The notes under the pieces were generated by a model that made no database searches, was not told where the DNA came from, and was given only the letters and a program-made list of their open reading frames with translations. The position numbers and the translations under genes were made by a program. A DNA stretch of 20,024 nucleotides from a virus. The stretch is taken from positions 1-20,024 of the IMG/VR virus record IMGVR_UViG_3300046714_000159. The stretch is one strand, 5' to 3'. Positions 1,123-17,678 of this stretch are shown piece after piece (the first letter of the stretch is position 1; each line of letters opens with the position of its first letter).

Positions 1123-2361
1123 ATGGCTAACACTCTTGTGAACTCGACCCTCGTTACTTATGAGACCCTTCGGCGCTTCGCCAACAGTCTCAAGGGCGTG
1201 GGTCAGTTCAATCGTCAGTACTCCGACGAGTACGCCAAGACCGGCGGAAAGATCGGCGACACGGCGAAGATTCGTCTTCCCCAGCAGTACGAAGTCTCGT
1301 CCGGTGAGGAACTGGTTGAACAGAACCTTCTGGACCGTACCGTCACCCTGATCCTCAACCGGCGTCGTCACATCGGCATGGGCTGGTCCACGCAGGAACA
1401 GACCATTGACCTTGACGATCTGAGAAGCCGTTACACCAACCCCGCGGGCGACACCCTGGCTTCCGTCTATGACCAGCTCGCAATGGCGGACGTGTACAAG
1501 CAGGTCTACAACGCGATCGGAACTCCCGGAACCGCTGCGACGGCTGCGATCACCTACTCGAACGCCCGGACGAAGATCGCGGACCAGGCCGGTCCCACGA
1601 ACGGCATCGTCGCCGTCCTGACTCCCTATTCCCAGGCTGTCATCGCTGATTCGGTCAAGGGGTATTTCGCTCCCGAGGACCGGATTCGCGAGGCGTGGGT
1701 TGAGGGGATGTTCGCAATGGGCCAGCTCGGGATCGACAAGTGGTTCATGGACCAGAACGTGCCCCGCTTCACCACGGGCGCTGCTACTACCGCGACGCCT
1801 CTGGTCAACGGTGCGGGTCAGACCGGCTCCAGCCTCATCACTGACGGTTGGGGAACTGCTGGTTTGGTTCTCCGCAAGGGCGACACGCTCAGCCTCGGCG
1901 GCGTTCAGTGGCTCAATCCGCTGTCCAAGGAAAACGTCGGCGCCAACGTTCAGGTGGTTCTGACGGCTGACGTGACTCCTGACGGTTCGGGCAACGCTAC
2001 GCTGTCGATCTCGCCCGCGCTTATCACGAGCGGTCCTCTCGCCAACGTGAGCGGCGCTCCGGCGGACAACGCGGTCATCACGTACCTCGCCATGTCGGCG
2101 GGTGGATCGCAGACGGCGACCATCACCGCACAGAACCTCGTCTTCCATCGGGATGCGTTCTATTCCGCGATGGTGGATCTGGTCAAGCCCACGGCCGGCG
2201 CTGACAGTTCTGTAGTGTCGAGTCGTGACCTCAACATCAGCCTCCGGTTGGTGCAGCAGTACGACATTATCAAGGACCGCAACCGCTCGCGCCTTGATTT
2301 CCTCGCCGGATTCGTGGCTGGCAAGCCTGAGTTTGCCACCCGCGTTTACGGCGGACAGTAG
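1123..2361 (+). CDS. Major capsid protein, P22 coat family (HK97 fold)
   Basis: At 412 residues it is close to the 430 of phage P22 gp5. The N-terminal third (SINRQY-like QFNRQYSDEYAKTG, then GDTAKIRLPQQY and a run ending DLDDL) follows the pattern of P22-type coat proteins. Around residues 250-320 is a beta-rich segment beginning LRKGDTLSLGGVQWLNPLSKE. This resembles the P22 coat insertion domain in its typical form (LKRGDKISFAGVKFL). The motif NLVFHRDAFYSAMVDL near the C-terminus is also typical of the family. It should form the icosahedral shell with the scaffold encoded just upstream. The ATG start is chosen because GAGG lies 5 bases upstream and the protein begins with the family-typical MANTL. 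It is the first gene of a closely packed run of virion genes. Confidence 0.93.
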   Translation: MANTLVNSTLVTYETLRRFANSLKGVGQFNRQYSDEYAKTGGKIGDTAKIRLPQQYEVSSGEELVEQNLLDRTVTLILNRRRHIGMGWSTQEQTIDLDDLRSRYTNPAGDTLASVYDQLAMADVYKQVYNAIGTPGTAATAAITYSNARTKIADQAGPTNGIVAVLTPYSQAVIADSVKGYFAPEDRIREAWVEGMFAMGQLGIDKWFMDQNVPRFTTGAATTATPLVNGAGQTGSSLITDGWGTAGLVLRKGDTLSLGGVQWLNPLSKENVGANVQVVLTADVTPDGSGNATLSISPALITSGPLANVSGAPADNAVITYLAMSAGGSQTATITAQNLVFHRDAFYSAMVDLVKPTAGADSSVVSSRDLNISLRLVQQYDIIKDRNRSRLDFLAGFVAGKPEFATRVYGGQ

Positions 2362-2372
2362 GAGATCGGCAA

Positions 2373-3197
2373 ATGGCTGTCACTCAGATCGCATCGACCA
2401 CTCTTACGAACGCAATCACGGCCAAAGACGACACGTTCGTCGTTGGCTCCACGGCTGGTATCACTGCCGGTGTCAGCGGTGGCGCTGTCAATTGGCTCGT
2501 CTTCGCCGGAAAGGGCGGAGTCGAAGTCTGCAAGGTCCAGGCGGTTCCCGTCTCCGGGACCGTACAGGTGTTCCGTGGCCAGCAGGGCACCAAGGCGCGC
2601 GCCCATACTGCGAACACGATCATCTACTACGGCACCCCTGATGTGTTCCGCAACGTGCGGGATAACGTCGCTGGTGTCCTCGGTGACTCGGTTCAGCTTC
2701 CCGAGTACTGCCTTCCCGGCACTCGCGCCCGTGACGGCGCGGGTAACGAGTACGTCATGGTCGATCTTCAGATGACCACGTACAGCGGCGTCACTGTCCT
2801 GATCGACTCCGCGCACGACGCGACGTACTTCGCGGCCGTGCTCGTGGGTGGAAACCAGGGCTTCGTCGGCGTCATGGCCGAAGAGGGCACGTCCAACCAG
2901 TGGGCGTGGGCGCAAATCTACGGCAAGACCGTTGCGCAGGATGCCACCGCGACGTCTGCGGCTGACTCCACGTACGTTCCCACGGCGGCGACGTCCGTCT
3001 CCACTCCGGCGGCGGGCATGGCGGCTATCGCGGGCACTTCTGCGATCGCCGGCACCGTGTTCCTCATCAAGGGCATGTTCATCGATGGGGCTGCGACCTC
3101 CGCGACGACCTCTGCCACGTCGCACACGGGTATTCAGGTTCCCGTGACCCTGAACTATCCCTTCGTGACCGTTTGGCCGGATGTGATCTCCAGCTAA
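2373..3197 (+). CDS. Putative minor head or capsid decoration protein
   Basis: The 274-residue product is rich in Ala, Thr, Val and Gly and appears to be beta-structured throughout, with no membrane segment or catalytic motif. It begins MAVTQIASTTLTNAIT, followed by a segment on binding-surface-like strands (TFVVGSTAGI, VQVFRGQQGTKA). The second half is a low-complexity Ala/Thr/Ser region. The C-terminus (GTVFLIKGMFIDGAATSAT and PVTLNYPFVTVWP) looks like the closing strands of small phage structural proteins. A GGAG site lies about 9 bases before ATG, and the gene starts 11 bases after the coat stop. Position immediately after the coat gene suggests a decoration, head-fibre or head-completion role. 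I do not recognise a specific family, so the role is inferred from position and composition. Confidence 0.62.
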   Translation: MAVTQIASTTLTNAITAKDDTFVVGSTAGITAGVSGGAVNWLVFAGKGGVEVCKVQAVPVSGTVQVFRGQQGTKARAHTANTIIYYGTPDVFRNVRDNVAGVLGDSVQLPEYCLPGTRARDGAGNEYVMVDLQMTTYSGVTVLIDSAHDATYFAAVLVGGNQGFVGVMAEEGTSNQWAWAQIYGKTVAQDATATSAADSTYVPTAATSVSTPAAGMAAIAGTSAIAGTVFLIKGMFIDGAATSATTSATSHTGIQVPVTLNYPFVTVWPDVISS

Positions 3198-5334: not shown

Positions 5335-6791
5335 ACTATCCGGCGTTCGTTGGTGCTTCGTACGAGAGTCAATCCCGCATCGCGGACGTGGAGAGGCTTG
5401 TCAATCGGTACGTCGAGAAAATGGAAGTGCAGGGCACGACATCACGATCGGCCCTCTATCCCGTTCCCGGCGTTACGTCTCTCTTCACTTCCACTGACGC
5501 GCCTGGTAGAGCGCATTGGTGTGAGAGCGGACGGGAATTTGCTGTCCAGGGTACGTCTCTAATCGAGTTCGACGTGAATGGGTTCGGAACGTACCGAGCA
5601 ACCGTCGCACTTGACGAGCGGCCGGCGCAGATTGTTAGCAATGGTGACGGCGGGGATCAACTCCTCGTGATCTCCGGAAAGCACGCCTACGTCTACGACC
5701 TGACGGCCAACACACTAACGGAAATTGCATCTCTCAGCGGCAAGGCCACGCAGTGCGGGTACCTGCACGGTTACGGGATTGTTCTGGATTCCGCGACGTC
5801 AACGTTCTACATCTCGGCCCTGCTCGACTTCACGACATTCACCACAGGTACGGACTTCGCGCAACGGTCTACCGTGTCTGACGCCTGGGTGGCGATGGCG
5901 GTCAACGGCATCTATCTCATGCTGTATGGAGAGAAGACTTCCGAGGCATGGTACGACGCCGGGACCGCTTCGTTCCCCTTCGCTCCGCATCCTTCTGGCC
6001 TGACGCTCTACGGCTGTGCCGCCTCCTTCTCTTGTGCTGTTGGTGAGGGGCACGCCTTCCGTCTGGGTCAGTCCTCCATCGGTCAGAGGTACGTACTTCA
6101 CGCCTCCGGGTTCGCGGATGAAGTGGTATCCGATCTCCCCAGGCAGGCAACATTCGATTCGTACCGTGTCGTATCCGATGCGCAAGGCGAAATCATCAAT
6201 TGGCGCGGGCATGTCTTCTATCTCCTCACGTTCCCGGCCGCGGACATTACATGGGCGTACGACCTCACTGGTAACTACTGGTTTGAATGGCGATCGTGGA
6301 TTTCGGAAAACCACGCCTTCACAGTATGGCGTCCGCGTTGGCACGCGATGGCCTTCGGCCAACACAGGATCCTCGATTCACAGACGGGCTCGCTCTACAA
6401 GCTCGATGCCACAGTGTTCCTCGACGTGGACAGCCGTCCGCTGAGATGGCTTCGTGTGGCTCCGGAACTCTCGGCCGCGAACGAACTGATTCAGTTTGCC
6501 CGGTTCGCTCTTGGTATCGAAACGGGCGTGGGAACCGAGGCCACGGGGCAAGGCGAGGATCCGACCGTGATGATGCGGTACTCGGACGACTCGGGACAGA
6601 ACTGGTCCGCAGAGCAACAGAGACGCCTAGGCAAGGTTGGGGAGTACTCGACCATCGTGGAATGGTGGAGGCTCGGAGCGGCGAGACATCGCGTCTTTGA
6701 GGTGAGCGGGTCTGACCCCGTTCCTATGCGCATCGTGGATGCGTTCCTGGACTTCGGCCAGCCCGTGAGAGCGCTTCAGGGGGCGAAGTAA
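5331..6791 (+). CDS. P22 gp10-like packaged DNA stabilisation protein / tail hub
   Basis: In P22, gp10 binds under gp4, plugs the DNA channel and carries the tail needle and fibres. The 486-residue product (P22 gp10 is 472) has the family's opening, FVGASYESQSRIADVERLVNRYVE, and PVPGVTSLFTS. Repeated beta-propeller-like strands follow (QLLVISGKHAYVYDL, CGYLHGYGIVLDSATSTFYIS). From W207 the segment WYDAGTASFPFAPHPSG corresponds to the conserved WYNAG-x-PFPF block of this family. Near the C-terminus RYSDDSGQNWSAEQQRRLGKVGEY is also a recurrent feature. ATG overlaps the stop of the gp4-like gene (ATGA), so the two adaptor proteins are probably translated together. No truncation or frameshift is visible. 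Confidence 0.88.
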   Translation: MNYPAFVGASYESQSRIADVERLVNRYVEKMEVQGTTSRSALYPVPGVTSLFTSTDAPGRAHWCESGREFAVQGTSLIEFDVNGFGTYRATVALDERPAQIVSNGDGGDQLLVISGKHAYVYDLTANTLTEIASLSGKATQCGYLHGYGIVLDSATSTFYISALLDFTTFTTGTDFAQRSTVSDAWVAMAVNGIYLMLYGEKTSEAWYDAGTASFPFAPHPSGLTLYGCAASFSCAVGEGHAFRLGQSSIGQRYVLHASGFADEVVSDLPRQATFDSYRVVSDAQGEIINWRGHVFYLLTFPAADITWAYDLTGNYWFEWRSWISENHAFTVWRPRWHAMAFGQHRILDSQTGSLYKLDATVFLDVDSRPLRWLRVAPELSAANELIQFARFALGIETGVGTEATGQGEDPTVMMRYSDDSGQNWSAEQQRRLGKVGEYSTIVEWWRLGAARHRVFEVSGSDPVPMRIVDAFLDFGQPVRALQGAK

Positions 6792-8135: not shown

Positions 8136-8768
8136 ATGGGATTGCTTGATTCGTACCGACCATACACAGAGAACCTTGACCCGGCCGGCGGGAGTGGTCC
8201 GGGTGGGAACGACGGTGGATACAACCCTCCTCCTCCGCCGACTCCTCCTCCTCCGCAGCTCACCGGCGGCATCTCGCCCTTCGGCGCTCCGGCTACCGGC
8301 GGTGGTGGTGGCGGTGGGGGTGGGACCAACAACGACTTCGGGGACTTCGGATTCGGTCCTGTTCCTGGCTTCAATGGGCCGGAGTTCACGCCTCCGAGCG
8401 CCGACGACCTGAACACGCCCGGTTATCAGGCTCGGCTCTCGGCTGGTGAACAGGCTTTGCAGCGCAGCGCTGCATCAAAGGGCCTCGTTCGTTCGGGTGG
8501 AACGCTAAAGGATCTGATCGAGTACGGTCAGAACTTCGCGTCCAACGAGTATAACAACTCGTTCAATCAAGCCCTCCAGGCGTACGGAACGCGCTATCAG
8601 CTTGCCAAGGACAAGTACGCGCCTCTCCTGGCGCAGTGGGATCTTCTCTCGAAGGCTCAAATCCAGAAGATGCTCGCGCAGTACAACCGCGGCACGGTCT
8701 GGAATGCTCCACACGGTGGGGGCGGTGGGGGAGAGCCTTACCCCGATCCTAACCTCTTCGGTCTCTAA
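8136..8768 (+). CDS. DNA ejection/transfer-type virion protein
   Basis: After a short N-terminus, the 210-residue product has a Pro run (PPPPPTPPPP) and a run of nine Gly, both flexible linkers. Residues from about 92 read TPGYQARLSAGEQALQRSA and then SKGLVRSGGTLKDLIEYGQ and NEYNNSFNQALQAYGTRYQ. This is a recognisable phage motif (SPGYQF-x-EG-x-AL-x-RSAAA-x-G-x-LSGGTLK-x-L-x-RYGQ) found in podovirus DNA-transfer and internal proteins of the P22 gp7 type. The C-terminus is Gly/Pro-rich. AGGAGA lies just before the ATG. It ends in a TAATG junction with the next gene. In P22, such proteins leave the virion first and help form a conduit across the envelope. That role here is inferred from the family motif. 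Confidence 0.72.
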   Translation: MGLLDSYRPYTENLDPAGGSGPGGNDGGYNPPPPPTPPPPQLTGGISPFGAPATGGGGGGGGGTNNDFGDFGFGPVPGFNGPEFTPPSADDLNTPGYQARLSAGEQALQRSAASKGLVRSGGTLKDLIEYGQNFASNEYNNSFNQALQAYGTRYQLAKDKYAPLLAQWDLLSKAQIQKMLAQYNRGTVWNAPHGGGGGGEPYPDPNLFGL

Positions 8769-10357: not shown

Positions 10358-11826
10358 TGGCTGAGTGGTGGGAATCCGCTCCGCTCGTGGATGAGCCAAT
10401 GCGCCCGATGGTTGCGCATACGCCGACGTCCGCCGGTAACTGGTGGGAGTCTGCCCCCAAGGTGGAGGAGCCTGCCCCGCGCGAGGTAATGAACTATCGG
10501 GGCCTGCGCATCGCTCGGCAGGGGGACAAGGTTGAAGTTAACCCCACGGCCACGGATGAAGATAAGACCGAACTGCTAAGGCAGAGCGGCGAATACCTCC
10601 CGGCAATGGCTTCTCTTGTCGCACCCCACGCCGCCACTGGAACGGCAGCGCGGATCTTGGCGAGTCCCTACACCTGGGGGGCCGTCTCTGGCGGGCGCGA
10701 ACTACTCAAAACCGGCGACCCCATCCGGGCCGGAGTTGCGGCGGCAGAGGGCTACGGCGGGGCGAAGATCGCGGGGCCGGTCGTAGGCAAGGTGCTAGGC
10801 GCGCTCCGTGGCAGGGCGGGCCAAATGGCGGCCGAGGCAGTCCCGGCCATCGAGAAGGCTGTCGGGGAGGCGGCGCCGACCGCGGAGGCAGACATCCAGG
10901 CCCTCGTCCAGAAGATGCGGGATCCGAGCACGCCTCTAACGGGACGCCTCGCCGCGCGGAGAGCGCTCGATGCGGCCGGCTGGAAGATGGAGGCCACGGC
11001 GCCCGCTGCGGCGGAGGCCACGGCGGCGAGTGCGCCCGCTGCCGCTCCGGTTGAGCAGTACGTGGCGCCGCCCCCGCGACCCACGCCCCCGTTCGTAGAG
11101 GATGCCGCGCCCGTCGCTCGGAAGGCAGTCCCCATTCCCGCGAAAGGCAACGTCAAGCCCGCGACGGTCTACGCTCCGACTCCGGTCCAAGGACCGAAAC
11201 CTCTGACCGAGGCGCAGACTGTTCTACGAGGGAGGCAAGAGGAAGCGGCGAAGGCGGCGGGTGTGGACATCGGAGAGGCATTCGGGACCACCACGAACAC
11301 GCCGCCGAAATCAGGCCGACTGGCATTGGATACTGATGTGGTGACGGGCCGCAAAGAAGTGCCATTCAACAGCGTCCAAGGCCAGAAATACCATCTAGCG
11401 GACCTATTGGACGAACAAAAGAGCGTGCGTGGCTGGATCCAAATGCATGCGCGCGGCTATGCAAAAGAGGGAATGCCGGCGGTACAGGAACTCTATAAGA
11501 GGGATGACATTGTAACTGCGGAGATCAAGGCGACAGAGGAGCATATTGCAGCCCTCGGCGCGGGCATGAAAATCGCGGCAAGGGCTACGCCCGCGACCGA
11601 ACAGGCGTCCGAGGGCGCACTGATGACACGGCTCCGGGCCTCCGTGATGATGAAGAAAGACCCGATTGGATTGGTGAACGAGGTGTCCCAGAAGGCGGCG
11701 GAGCTTACTCAGAGTGGCCTTAGCCGGGAGAAGGTTGGCGCGGCGATCGAAGAACTGTACGGCCTGACTCCGGCGAAGATCAAACAGATGACCGACGCTG
11801 TGACTTTTGCTCAGGGGTTGAAATGA
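10357..11826 (+). CDS. Ejection-type virion protein with tandem WWESAP motif
   Basis: The 489-residue product begins with a duplicated motif: EWWESAPLVDEP at residue 3 and NWWESAPKVEEP at about residue 28. Similar WW-x-x-AP repeats occur at the N-termini of large podovirus internal proteins. Residues about 85-140 form Ala/Gly-rich hydrophobic helices (MASLVAPHAATGTAARILAS, IRAGVAAAEGYGGAKIAG) that could contact membrane. Residues 215-270 are a low-complexity Ala/Pro linker. The C-terminal 150 residues are helical and globular. It follows the previous ejection gene through a TAATG junction and is the last of the + strand late genes here. Its final 47 bases overlap tail-to-tail with the minus-strand membrane gene. 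No lytic transglycosylase motif is visible. Confidence 0.68.
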   Translation: MAEWWESAPLVDEPMRPMVAHTPTSAGNWWESAPKVEEPAPREVMNYRGLRIARQGDKVEVNPTATDEDKTELLRQSGEYLPAMASLVAPHAATGTAARILASPYTWGAVSGGRELLKTGDPIRAGVAAAEGYGGAKIAGPVVGKVLGALRGRAGQMAAEAVPAIEKAVGEAAPTAEADIQALVQKMRDPSTPLTGRLAARRALDAAGWKMEATAPAAAEATAASAPAAAPVEQYVAPPPRPTPPFVEDAAPVARKAVPIPAKGNVKPATVYAPTPVQGPKPLTEAQTVLRGRQEEAAKAAGVDIGEAFGTTTNTPPKSGRLALDTDVVTGRKEVPFNSVQGQKYHLADLLDEQKSVRGWIQMHARGYAKEGMPAVQELYKRDDIVTAEIKATEEHIAALGAGMKIAARATPATEQASEGALMTRLRASVMMKKDPIGLVNEVSQKAAELTQSGLSREKVGAAIEELYGLTPAKIKQMTDAVTFAQGLK

Positions 11827-12037
11827 ACTCATTGAGCAGAGTCCCACCGAACCCGACCGCAAAGACCAGAAACAGCAACGTCCGCCCTTGCGTGTACAGC
11901 GTGTCGAGCATGAACACCGCGATCAGGAACCCGAGACCGGGCACCCGTCGAAGGGCCATGTCCGCCCGCGTGAACCAGTCGAAGCGGGGAGGATTCATCT
12001 TGTCCATCGGCAGCACGTCTGCGGGTCGTTCTACCAT
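11780..12037 (-). CDS. Small two-helix membrane protein, holin candidate
   Basis: Read on the minus strand, the product is 85 residues with a soluble N-terminus, then two hydrophobic segments (GLGFLIAVFMLDTLY and TLLFLVFAVGFGGTLLNEF) and a charged tail (EQKSQRRSSV). Small size, two membrane helices and a basic C-terminus fit holins, but no family is recognised. The start is well supported: AAGGAG lies 7 bases before the ATG, embedded in the end of the upstream minus-strand gene. The competing + strand frame over the same DNA (11823-12215) is Arg/Thr/Ser-rich with no recognisable features. It is the mirror of these hydrophobic segments. The gene's end overlaps the last ejection gene by 47 bases. 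The minus orientation is unique in the window. Confidence 0.62.
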   Translation of the reverse strand: MVERPADVLPMDKMNPPRFDWFTRADMALRRVPGLGFLIAVFMLDTLYTQGRTLLFLVFAVGFGGTLLNEFISTPEQKSQRRSSV

Positions 12038-12040
12038 GAC

Positions 12041-12178
12041 TTACTCCTTCGTGTTGAACTGCTTCGGAAAGCACTTCATGAGAACCAAGACGCAACCGCC
12101 GAGAACGGCCCACGCCACCGCGACCTCTAACGACTCGAAGATGAGGACCGCGAGAACGGTGACGCCCAAGGCCAGCAT
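12041..12178 (-). CDS. Tiny membrane protein upstream of the holin candidate
   Basis: A 45-residue minus-strand frame starts with MLALGVTVLAVLIFESLEV and continues with AVAWAVLGGCVLVLMKCFP, two closely spaced hydrophobic stretches and a short basic tail. Its TAA is 3 bases before the ATG of the next minus-strand gene, and the Shine-Dalgarno of that gene (AAGGAG) lies inside its last codons, so the two form an operon. No Shine-Dalgarno precedes its own ATG. Instead a TACCTT box lies 7 bases before the ATG, with TAGTCA 17 bases further upstream. This would fit a leaderless transcript with a weak promoter. It could be a second holin component or antiholin, which is inference. Confidence 0.5.
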   Translation of the reverse strand: MLALGVTVLAVLIFESLEVAVAWAVLGGCVLVLMKCFPKQFNTKE

Positions 12179-12279
12179 GTCCGCGAAGGTAATCCGGGGC
12201 GTTTCGCTTGACTAGCGGAGAAAGGGCGAAAGCCTTGTTTCAGCCCGAGAAAGTGTCACAACCGGAAAGAGGGGGATTT
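12179..12279. promoter_or_regulatory. Divergent control region between membrane cassette and tail fibre
   Basis: These 101 bases separate the minus-strand cassette from the + strand fibre start. They contain TTGACT at 12208-12213, the bipartite repeat at 12231-12261 described separately, and a purine-rich Shine-Dalgarno AGAGGGGG at 12268-12275 placed 4 bases before GTG at 12280. The fibre frame remains open upstream to a TTG at 12208, but that start has no convincing ribosome site. No consensus -10 box is obvious for the fibre gene. Confidence 0.5.
12231..12261 (+). repeat. Bipartite element, copy 1 (AGCCTTGT-N11-AAAGTGTCACAA)
   Basis: AGCCTTGT at 12231-12238 and AAAGTGTCACAA at 12250-12261 are separated by 11 bases. 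The same two blocks with the same 11-base spacing recur at 14479-14509. Both copies lie in non-coding control regions, so a protein-binding site or phage promoter element is the likeliest reading. Confidence 0.6.
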
Positions 12280-13455
12280 GTGCGTAGTCTGAGCCGTTTT
12301 ACCGTCGTCTTCCTGATCGGCCTCCTAGCCTTCTCTCCGCTCCATGCGGCGACGGGGACCATTGCCCCCTTCCCCAAGCACGTCTTTCTGAACAACAGCG
12401 GGCTACCCTGTGTGGGCTGCAAGCTGTTCACGTACTCCGCCGGTACGACCACAAAGGTCAACAGCTACACCGAAGTCACGCTCAGTTCCGCGAATACGAA
12501 TCCGATCGTCTTGGATTCGGCGGGTAGAGCAACCATCTTCCTGACGCCCGGAATCTCGTATAAGTTTGTCCTGGCGCCTTCCACGGACACAGATCCTCCC
12601 ATTGCTGCAATCTGGACGGTTGATAACGTGGACGCGGTTCCTTCCAACGCAAGTAACGTGGATGTGCTCGCCGTTGCTGGAGAAGCGTTCTCGGCCGGAG
12701 ATGCTGTCTATGAGTCGGACGGTCAGGGATCCAGGACGGCCGGGAGTTGGTACAAGATGGACGCCGACTTCGCCTACGCCTCCACGGAGGCCCCGGTAAT
12801 CGGCATCGCTCTAACCGCGGCGGCTGGCATCTCCACGATTGCCACCGTTACCACATCCGGGCGCGTCGTGAATCAAAGCGGCTTGGCTCAGGGATCTATG
12901 TACTACGCTTCGGCCACGGCGGGAGCTTTGACGTCCACGGCACCCACGCTGGCCCGAGCCGTACTGTTCGCGGCTGGTTCCACGTCCGGCAACATCGCGC
13001 GAGACGGGTATCCCAAGTTCGCCTATCCTCCGGTGGGAGTCCCGACGTACGCGAGACAGACGGCTAACGTCACGAAGAACAATAGCACCGTGTTTGGTGA
13101 TCTCACGGGTCTGTCGTTCACGGTTGGAGCATCTCAGACGTGGGACTTCCGCTATACGCTGTTTTGCACGTCTGCTGCCGCTGCGGATATCAAGTTCACC
13201 CTGACAGGTCCGGCGGCACCCACGGCTATCCGGTACGGCCTTCTGGGAAGCGACGGTGGATCCTCGACGGCCTTTTCCACCGCGACAACCATGTCAACGC
13301 TCGGCACAGTGGAACAGACGTTGACTCTTGCGGGCACGCTGAGAAACGGCACGACGGCAGGAACCGTCCAGATTCAAATGGCGCAGAACATCGCGGACGT
13401 ATCCAACACGATTTGTAGCACCGACTCCGCCGTGATCGCTTGGCGCATCAACTAG
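12280..13455 (+). CDS. Tail fibre with N-terminal virion adaptor and Sec-type signal peptide
   Basis: Residues from about 24 (ATGTIAPFPKHVFLNNSG, then KLFTYSAGTTTKVNSYTEV and TNPIVLDSAGRATIFL) are the standard podovirus fibre adaptor domain that joins fibres to the tail hub. The middle (GIALTAAAGISTIATVTTSG and following) resembles small trimeric beta modules. The C-terminal part (VTKNNSTVFGDLTGLSFTVG, GTLRNGTTAGTVQIQMAQN) matches a beta-sandwich common at phage fibre tips, probably receptor-binding. Unusually, the adaptor is preceded by RSLSRFTVVFLIGLLAFSP-LHA, which reads as a Sec signal peptide with cleavage after residue 23. The adaptor has a CVGC pair where related fibres have a small residue pair, and two more Cys lie near the C-terminus. 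The GTG at 12280 (391 residues) is preferred for its AGAGGGGG site. The TTG at 12208 would give 415. Confidence 0.82.
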   Translation: MRSLSRFTVVFLIGLLAFSPLHAATGTIAPFPKHVFLNNSGLPCVGCKLFTYSAGTTTKVNSYTEVTLSSANTNPIVLDSAGRATIFLTPGISYKFVLAPSTDTDPPIAAIWTVDNVDAVPSNASNVDVLAVAGEAFSAGDAVYESDGQGSRTAGSWYKMDADFAYASTEAPVIGIALTAAAGISTIATVTTSGRVVNQSGLAQGSMYYASATAGALTSTAPTLARAVLFAAGSTSGNIARDGYPKFAYPPVGVPTYARQTANVTKNNSTVFGDLTGLSFTVGASQTWDFRYTLFCTSAAAADIKFTLTGPAAPTAIRYGLLGSDGGSSTAFSTATTMSTLGTVEQTLTLAGTLRNGTTAGTVQIQMAQNIADVSNTICSTDSAVIAWRIN

Positions 13456-13483: not shown

Positions 13484-14350
13484 GTGGAAACTGACCGCCG
13501 CTCGTTCGTCGCATCGTTGCTGGCCTCGCCGCTTCTGACGCTCCGTCCTCCGGTGATGGGTGTTAGACCGAGCCAGCCCAAGTTCTCCCGGACTCAATGG
13601 GGTACGGATCCCCAACAGGTCGTAGACCACTACGCGGCCACGGGAACATCCAAGGGGCATCTCGTCCTCGTTCATGGCGGGGGGTGGACCACAGGGACCA
13701 CCCAACACGGCATCATCCCGTTCTATGCTCCTCTAGCTCAGTCTGCCGGATTCGACGTGACCTCGGTCGGGTATCGCCTCGCCGGTCCCTATGTGGATTG
13801 GCACGTTCAAGTCCAAGACATCCTCGCGGGGATCGCCTACGTCAGGACGAGCCTCGGAGTGAGCGGACCTCTACTCATGATGGGGGAGAGCGCTGGGGGG
13901 CACCTAGCGGCCATGGTGGCTCTAGGTGGGGCTTGTATCGTCCCCGTCGCAGGATTGATCTCCCTGTACGGAGTCCTTGACCTACAGGCGATCGACGCGG
14001 ACTGTCCTGCCCATACATGGTCAACGGACGAAAACGCGATGCTAGCCCTTCGCTACTGTCTCGGGGGCTATCTCCCGTGGGAGGACTGGTACGTGTCGGC
14101 TTACGCTTCTCCCGTCTACCTCGCTCAGGTCACGACGGCGGAAGTCCCGAGAGTCCTCCTCGTCCATTCCACGGACGACCCCCTCATCGGAGCGGAGCAG
14201 TCGAGACGGTTGCAGAGGGTGTTAGCCGGCCGACCGGGGGTTAGCGTGAGTCTTCTGGAGCTGCCTTGGTCCGACCATGGGGGGGTGAAGTTCCAAGCCC
14301 CTCCCGTGTCCAACCTCGTCATGTCCTTCCTCGCGGCGGCCGTTCTATAG
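13484..14350 (+). CDS. Alpha/beta-hydrolase esterase with Tat-like N-terminus
   Basis: The 288-residue product has the hallmarks of HSL/BD-FAE-type carboxylesterases. The oxyanion motif HGGGW is at 64-68, the nucleophile elbow GESAGG at 134-139 (Ser136), a candidate acid in HSTDDPLIG at Asp232, and the catalytic His265 in SDHGG. The order and spacing fit the family, so it is probably an active hydrolase of ester bonds such as acetyl groups. It starts METDRRSFVASLLASPLL, in which DRRSFVA resembles the twin-arginine export motif, though the hydrophobic stretch is short and no clear cleavage site follows. It lies 28 bases after the tail fibre. It may act on host surface polysaccharide, either as a virion enzyme or as an exported conversion factor. 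That role is inference, while the hydrolase fold is well supported. Confidence 0.85.
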   Translation: METDRRSFVASLLASPLLTLRPPVMGVRPSQPKFSRTQWGTDPQQVVDHYAATGTSKGHLVLVHGGGWTTGTTQHGIIPFYAPLAQSAGFDVTSVGYRLAGPYVDWHVQVQDILAGIAYVRTSLGVSGPLLMMGESAGGHLAAMVALGGACIVPVAGLISLYGVLDLQAIDADCPAHTWSTDENAMLALRYCLGGYLPWEDWYVSAYASPVYLAQVTTAEVPRVLLVHSTDDPLIGAEQSRRLQRVLAGRPGVSVSLLELPWSDHGGVKFQAPPVSNLVMSFLAAAVL

Positions 14351-16828: not shown

Positions 16829-17391
16829 GCGACTGGAAAGAGCGGCTAGAGGCGGTGGCGACTCTGGCGAACCGTCCCCGGCCGATGGACGGCGAAGTCT
16901 ACTGCGCCAATCGGACGTGCGGGAATCGCAGGTTGAACCGTACCGATCTGACGTGCTGGGTCTGCGGCGCTGACAAGTTCATCCCGGCATCCGAGGAGAT
17001 GCTGGCGTCGAATCGCTTCACCTTTGTCAAGCCGCCGCGCCGCGAGGAGTCAGCGCCGAAACCGGCGGTGCAAACGAGCCCGCAGGTGTCGCAGGCATGG
17101 CAGAAATACTTTGCATCCCCTGGCTCTGTTCTCTATCCGCCTCAGACCGCGCTGCCAGCACAGGCGACGGCGGCGCCCCAGACGTATGCCGATGTTCTGA
17201 AGCAGTACCAACACGAGTATGAGAAAGCCTATCAACGGGCGGCGCAGCGAATCGCCCCTGTTGTCGGCGTCGCACCGGCGACCGACGAAGAGCACGTTAT
17301 CAGAGCGGGGGAAACAGTAACGGTTCGCATTGATCCAGACCCGCCCAAGCGCTCGTTCGTGGATCGGTTTTGGGGTCGGTTCGGGCTGTGA
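16825..17391 (+). CDS. Zinc-ribbon protein with helical C-terminal half
   Basis: The 188-residue product starts at a GTG in a GTGA overlap; an in-frame GTG at 16819 would add two residues. Residues about 26-47 form a four-Cys zinc ribbon: CANRTC, then CWVCG. The middle is Pro/Gln/Ala-rich and probably disordered. The segment TYADVLKQYQHEYEKAYQRAAQR is a strong amphipathic helix. The last 40 residues include a strand-like IRAGETVTVRIDPDPP and a tail DRFWGRFGL. No family is recognised. It may bind nucleic acid or a host protein through the ribbon. The stop overlaps the next gene in a TGATG. Confidence 0.6.
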   Translation: MSDWKERLEAVATLANRPRPMDGEVYCANRTCGNRRLNRTDLTCWVCGADKFIPASEEMLASNRFTFVKPPRREESAPKPAVQTSPQVSQAWQKYFASPGSVLYPPQTALPAQATAAPQTYADVLKQYQHEYEKAYQRAAQRIAPVVGVAPATDEEHVIRAGETVTVRIDPDPPKRSFVDRFWGRFGL

Positions 17392-17678
17392 TGCGCACCC
17401 TGCTTTTGTGCCTGATCGCGGCGCCCGGCTCGTTCACCGTCCTGCTCCTGGCTATTCGTTCCTTGGTCCGCGTGGCGAGACGTGAACGTCAGGAGGACGA
17501 GGACCACGCCCGGAAGATCCGCATAGCCTCCGAATACGGACTCATGGAGGACGCGATTGAAAGGCGGTCGGTGATGCCGCCGCCGGAGCCTGAAACGGGT
17601 ACGAGCGTACCCAATCCGGGAGCGGTCAAGAGAGATCCCGACGCACCGACAAGCACGTACACGAAAGGAATGAACTGA
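17391..17678 (+). CDS. Membrane-anchored small protein
   Basis: The 95-residue product begins MRTLLLCLIAAPGSFTVLLL, a hydrophobic N-terminal helix that could be a membrane anchor. A positive loop and charged helix follow (LVRVARRERQEDEDHARK), which resembles the end of the protein encoded at 16279-16527. The remainder is Pro-rich and polar. The start is the ATG in a TGATG junction; the frame is open upstream to 17370. The function is unknown. The Arg-rich flank after the helix predicts a cytoplasmic C-terminus by the positive-inside rule. Confidence 0.55.
   Translation: MRTLLLCLIAAPGSFTVLLLAIRSLVRVARRERQEDEDHARKIRIASEYGLMEDAIERRSVMPPPEPETGTSVPNPGAVKRDPDAPTSTYTKGMN

Follow-up and report, generated by a model that had tools for sequence, protein, structure and literature searches.

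The gene at 12280-13455 (plus strand) of a 20,024-base virus record, which was analyzed over its whole length and is called the window below, raises the question of why the head-binding (adaptor) domain of an apparent podovirus tailspike should be preceded by a Sec-type signal peptide, when tailed-phage virions are taught as wholly cytoplasmic products. The open reading frame begins with a GTG and translates into 391 residues, and a probable ribosome binding site (AGAGGGGG, 12268-12275, plus strand) lies 5' of the start codon.

Residues 1 to 23 (12280-12348, plus strand) read VRSLSRFTVVFLIGLLAFSPLHA, and ATGT follows the predicted cleavage site; the net charge is +2, the core is devoid of charged residues and the -3/-1 site is LHA. 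Leaders were called with a fixed rule in three parts, namely a charged n-region, a hydrophobic 8-mer and small residues at -3 and -1, and by rule score the product has the n-region, the hydrophobic core and the -3/-1 residues of a substrate for Sec and signal peptidase I. The rule was positive for this one of the 20 likely genes in the window and negative for the other 19, while a laxer scan of alternative starts flagged one more short reading frame (17370-17678), which is probably a membrane protein. A longer form of 415 residues requires the TTG at 12208, where the ribosome site is weaker than at the GTG at 12280. The first in-frame ATG, GTG or TTG downstream of 12280 is the GTG at 12412, inside the CVGC motif of the adaptor, which means that none of these codons can yield a leaderless protein whose adaptor is whole, and the suggestion that an internal start at the adaptor would remove the signal had to be given up. 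A tailspike of the Pam1/P22 type begins at the head-binding domain; here the 23-residue leader comes first.

The adaptor itself occupies residues 24-122 (12349-12645, plus strand). A profile built from the adaptor family matched the cryo-EM structure of the Pam1 tailspike head-binding domain (7EEQ) with E=2e-16 in hmmsearch and also matched the Pan3 tailspike (9VYG and 9VYH), and the window protein alone matched 7EEQ at 1e-7 in phmmer. A model of the adaptor, with pLDDT values mostly of 85-93 in the core and about 60-73 at both ends, retrieved 9VYG (8e-5), 7EEQ (3e-4) and the P22 structure 2VKY (7e-3) in Foldseek, and P22 9JG6 was also found more weakly. By sequence and by predicted fold the adaptor is thus the head-binding domain of a podovirus tailspike. 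The CVGC pair (C44 and C47; 12409-12420, plus strand) lies within it, and alignments show Leu/Gly or other residues at these positions in leaderless homologues. Residues 123-253 (12646-13038, plus strand) form a middle domain that tblastn finds also in the leaderless relatives L020, L031, L176 and L023, and that is modelled with low confidence; the full-length AlphaFold model has a mean pLDDT of 51, with the adaptor alone well modelled. The last 138 residues (254-391; 13039-13452, plus strand) are predicted by AlphaFold2 as a TNF/C1q-like jelly roll, with a pLDDT of 80.6 for a monomer modelled from a two-row alignment. Its best solved matches in Foldseek are TNF-like lectins, and tail-fibre proteins and fibre tips of phages are among the top hits in viruses. 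With a head-binding domain in front and a jelly-roll tip that has fibre matches behind, the protein is built like a receptor-binding fibre of a virion. The original prediction of a CVGC pair and two more cysteines near the C-terminus holds as to the four cysteines, which are at 44, 47, 296 and 379, but C296 lies some 95 residues short of the C-terminus. C44 and C47 would be joined by a disulfide in the adaptor, and C296 and C379 would probably pair in the tip; for the C-terminal domain, a relative in L274 carries no cysteine.

Strong evidence for the leader comes from its distribution among homologues. Relatives from isolated phages begin at the adaptor, with Leu/Gly or other residues in place of the two cysteines, as do most of the first 80 from IMG/VR. 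The closest relatives of the window protein, L018 and L020, which are 62-65% identical to it, have neither leader nor CxxC. A search with a DNA pattern written for CxxC adaptors gave 25 viral contigs. The fixed rule was positive for 22 of 24 distinct CxxC adaptors, a count that takes in the window and the prophage L122, and the leader is at the same place in them. Among the Leu/Gly matches listed, many of them fetched with an equivalent DNA pattern, the rule was positive for 2 of 144 distinct adaptors (Fisher p=4e-23); this comparison set is a sample and not a census. Homologues that start at the adaptor, which had been named as evidence against a leader, are found in the wider family and not among the CxxC-bearing relatives, where the leader recurs. 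With so few positives among comparable Leu/Gly adaptors a chance resemblance was dismissed, and we regard the leader of the 12280-13455 product, as read from its sequence, as very probably genuine; the Sec-type leader with an LHA-A site that had been proposed is borne out both by the rule and by this split.

Exceptions were found on both sides. One of the two rule-negative CxxC adaptors, L108, has a leader that is visible by eye, while the other (L002/L113) is truly without one; directly upstream of it lie a short reading frame of hydrophobic residues and a stop codon in frame. In L002 this frame (5980-6060) is 21 residues long and in the same frame as the CxxC adaptor; it is possibly a recently lost leader or a separate small peptide. 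Conversely, the leader-bearing adaptors L131, L213, L221, L279 and L280 retain PLxGG.

In a first phylogenetic tree of the adaptors the leader state changed about seven times. When the CxxC columns were masked and the nearest relatives added, 13 leader changes were obtained (12-13 in bootstraps, at least 5 of them on supported branches) from about 91 columns, many forks being poorly resolved because the adaptor domain is short. The nearest row to the window is then L018, with an identity of 65-66%, without leader and without CxxC. In five supported independent pairs CxxC followed the leader 4.5 times on average and the opposite direction was never seen, the floor of a sign test with five pairs being p=0.06. 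Since the tree demands repeated changes of the leader, a single inherited accident was dismissed; instead, leader and added cysteines appear from these alignments to have been gained together several times among the relatives, which suggests export of virion parts.

Mature leader-bearing fibres contain 1.71 cysteines per 100 residues vs 0.63 in the comparison proteins (p=3e-8), and the difference persists without the adaptor pair (p=3e-4). An even number of cysteines was seen in 10 of 14 non-redundant fibres (p=0.09), which is a trend and was therefore dropped as a proof of disulfides. The idea that the cysteines suit an oxidising compartment thus gains strong comparative support, the leader being tied to both CxxC and cysteine richness.

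The association extends to neighbouring genes. The adjacent downstream gene carries a leader in 15 of 31 cases vs 8 of 177 in Leu/Gly phages among the matches listed (p=3e-9), and such leader-bearing neighbours are also rich in cysteines, while the upstream gene shows no difference (1 of 46 vs 4 of 299, again among the matches listed). Uninterrupted runs of three to four leader-bearing tail-region genes, mostly with many cysteines, occur in the near-complete genomes G003, G011 and G002, and the ejection genes have no cysteine. G003 has a second leader-bearing pair distant from the fibre cluster (L264, 16220-18477, plus strand), one member of which is a protein of 594 residues with 21 cysteines. 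In the G010 clade, which is linked to Acidobacteriota, all four relatives, the prophage included, encode directly 3' of the capsid gene a protein with a leader and with four cysteines in its mature part (the leader of L285 was called by eye). From its position and a phrog_1101 domain shared with tail proteins, the product may be a capsid-surface protein. A related gene of G003 is leaderless, as is a more distant one of the window (2373-3197, plus strand; phrog_1101 domain), which is distantly similar to the leader-bearing version of G010 (L266; BLAST E=0.004).

The context of the fibre gene bears on whether its product is a part of the virion. The window encodes a major capsid protein of the P22 coat family (1123-2361, plus strand; Pfam P22_CoatProtein, phrog_283) without cysteines and without leader, as well as head-closure genes. 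Two large cysteine-free genes and a DNA-ejection gene that marks the context of a tailspike slot (8136-8768, plus strand; phrog_598) precede the fibre gene, which therefore lies after the ejection genes as in PBR31 and other isolates. The adaptor gene is present as a single copy in the window and in 19 of 19 related records, a count that covers this type of tailspike and records that may be fragments, and that speaks against an extra decoy copy beside a virion tailspike. Downstream of the fibre gene is an alpha/beta-hydrolase esterase (13484-14350, plus strand; Pfam Abhydrolase_3/BD-FAE, PHROG esterase) with the twin-arginine N-terminus METDRRSFVASLLASPLL, which the Sec rule misses and which is possibly exported via Tat. 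Opposite the gap 5' of the fibre gene, two small reading frames with membrane segments are found on the minus strand (11780-12200), one of them of 85 residues with a weak DUF5985 match, and G010 too has a minus-strand gene at the corresponding place.

The original prediction had favoured a secreted fibre-like decoy or exclusion factor. On such a reading an exported trimer would use its lectin-like tip to bind surface glycans of the infected cell or lysogen and would block or destroy the receptors of competing phages, with the adaptor as a relic. The leader, the lectin-like model of the tip and the neighbouring esterase with its possible Tat leader would all suit such a function, as would the one relative that resides as a prophage in a bacterial chromosome and has more exported genes adjacent to it. 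Against this, the record has no second adaptor gene, and the gene occupies the slot of the tailspike, so that a decoy would leave the virion without a head-binding tailspike of this type; in addition the adaptor remains conserved, and a receptor decoy does not account for the co-gain in the capsid-adjacent gene of one clade. We consider this explanation rather unlikely and, from the single copy, the tailspike slot and a domain solved in virions, favour a real virion part; on these sequence grounds the 12280-13455 product is quite likely to be one.

A second explanation is that the hydrophobic segment is never cleaved and stays in the virion, where it would insert into the host membrane at ejection or anchor the fibre. 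The hydrophobic N-terminus does abut the virion domain directly, and additional hydrophobic segments occur in some relatives, such as L100 with its leader and a C-terminal membrane segment. A retained segment is nevertheless very unlikely, as the core is short and small -3/-1 residues are kept at the expected place though the leader sequences are otherwise divergent, as the link to CxxC and cysteine richness implies an oxidising compartment, as adjacent proteins without adaptor bear leaders of the same kind, and as isolated phages include leaderless homologues. The leader-bearing CxxC fibre of L100 (5146-6552, minus strand) ends in a possible chaperone-like segment, then the membrane segment and RRRR, an arrangement that looks as if the fibre crossed the membrane and stayed anchored in it until its release. 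Dual targeting, in which an inefficient leader lets one part of the protein leave as a free enzyme or lectin while another is kept for cytoplasmic virion assembly, would account for both virion slot and leader without attachment after lysis, but is highly improbable since no other ATG, GTG or TTG start gives an intact adaptor and a retained precursor would have a blocked adaptor N-terminus and lack the disulfides implied by the gain of cysteines.

The leader speaks for export, whereas the head-binding domain, the single gene copy and the position in the tailspike slot speak for a part of the virion; the two can be reconciled if the fibre joins the particle after lysis. In the explanation that we prefer, the 12280-13455 product would be the phage's own receptor-binding tailspike or fibre, made as a precursor that is exported through Sec and then cut by signal peptidase I after LHA. 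The mature fibre would be disulfide-bonded in the periplasm, with C44-C47 in the adaptor and probably C296-C379 in the tip. Because capsids assemble in the cytoplasm, the mature trimer would meet the particle only once lysis mixes the compartments, and docking of the head-binding domain on the short tail would be the final assembly step. In P22 the tailspike is the last part to be added, and completed particles can also receive it outside the cell. Export of the product is well supported by the sequence comparisons, and from these we infer export and cleavage as events, the pairing of the bonds, trimerisation and docking after lysis. That the fibre joins the particle after lysis seems somewhat more probable than not, and the whole, an exported and disulfide-bonded tailspike joining the virion after lysis, is probable to a similar degree.

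The window protein has the adaptor fold in common with the tailspikes Pam1 gp17 (7EEQ), Pan3 (9VYG/9VYH) and P22 gp9, and shares a sequence family with those of Pam1 and Pan3; as in the window, these tailspikes are found in the slot after the ejection genes, and they have a C-terminal receptor-binding part, as the window protein would too. Pam1, Pan3 and the other isolate relatives examined begin at the adaptor and have neither leader nor CxxC, whereas the window protein has both. There is also a likeness to coat proteins of filamentous phages such as M13 pIII, virion proteins that are synthesised with a Sec leader and acquire disulfides before assembly, these phages being assembled at the membrane and extruded. 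The window phage, in contrast, is tailed and has a P22-type coat protein, and its fibre has no C-terminal membrane anchor. Lambda Lom is a phage-encoded exported protein of the host surface (PMC12309495), and like the window fibre gene it is a leader-bearing gene in the tail-fibre region, but it forms a barrel in the outer membrane and remains with the host, while the leader in the window precedes a virion head-binding domain. The target proteins of phage DGRs have been stated to lack signal peptides (PMC6199706). Searches of the open literature, which took in few subscription papers or preprints, turned up no account of tailed phages whose tailspikes bear a leader, and no virion proteomics of a leader-bearing phage came to light.

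More broadly, several lineages of tailed phages, diderm Acidobacteriota phages among them, may export outer virion parts to the periplasm, where these would fold oxidatively, and finish the particle only after lysis. We put this forward tentatively, and as tentatively the exported set that it would comprise, namely the tailspike, accessory spikes and the capsid-adjacent protein of one clade. If true, routing through Sec and disulfide formation could stabilise receptor-binding proteins, which could pass between co-infecting phages at lysis or work as free enzymes before the virion is completed. It would also explain cysteine-rich, leader-bearing and "bacterial-looking" genes in tail regions, which may be mistaken for host or moron genes, and a leader in front of a CxxC adaptor would be a simple rule for finding such phages and genes.

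As to hosts, the prophage L122/L278 is in a Candidatus Acidiferrales genome, where it is followed by a gene for a lipid A acyltransferase and by further genes that look bacterial, and at least one host is therefore a diderm with a periplasm. Searching 396 Acidobacteriota genomes gave the adaptor in four. Three of them have a leader, namely the known prophage and two with PLxGG in place of CxxC, and the fourth is a distant one without leader. The two PLxGG adaptors (L279 and L280) are in proteins with 7-9 cysteines elsewhere. After the fibre gene of the prophage, L278 (5714-7486, plus strand) encodes a lipoprotein-like cysteine-rich protein, a product that may be an outer-membrane barrel, and an HNH nuclease with a leader.
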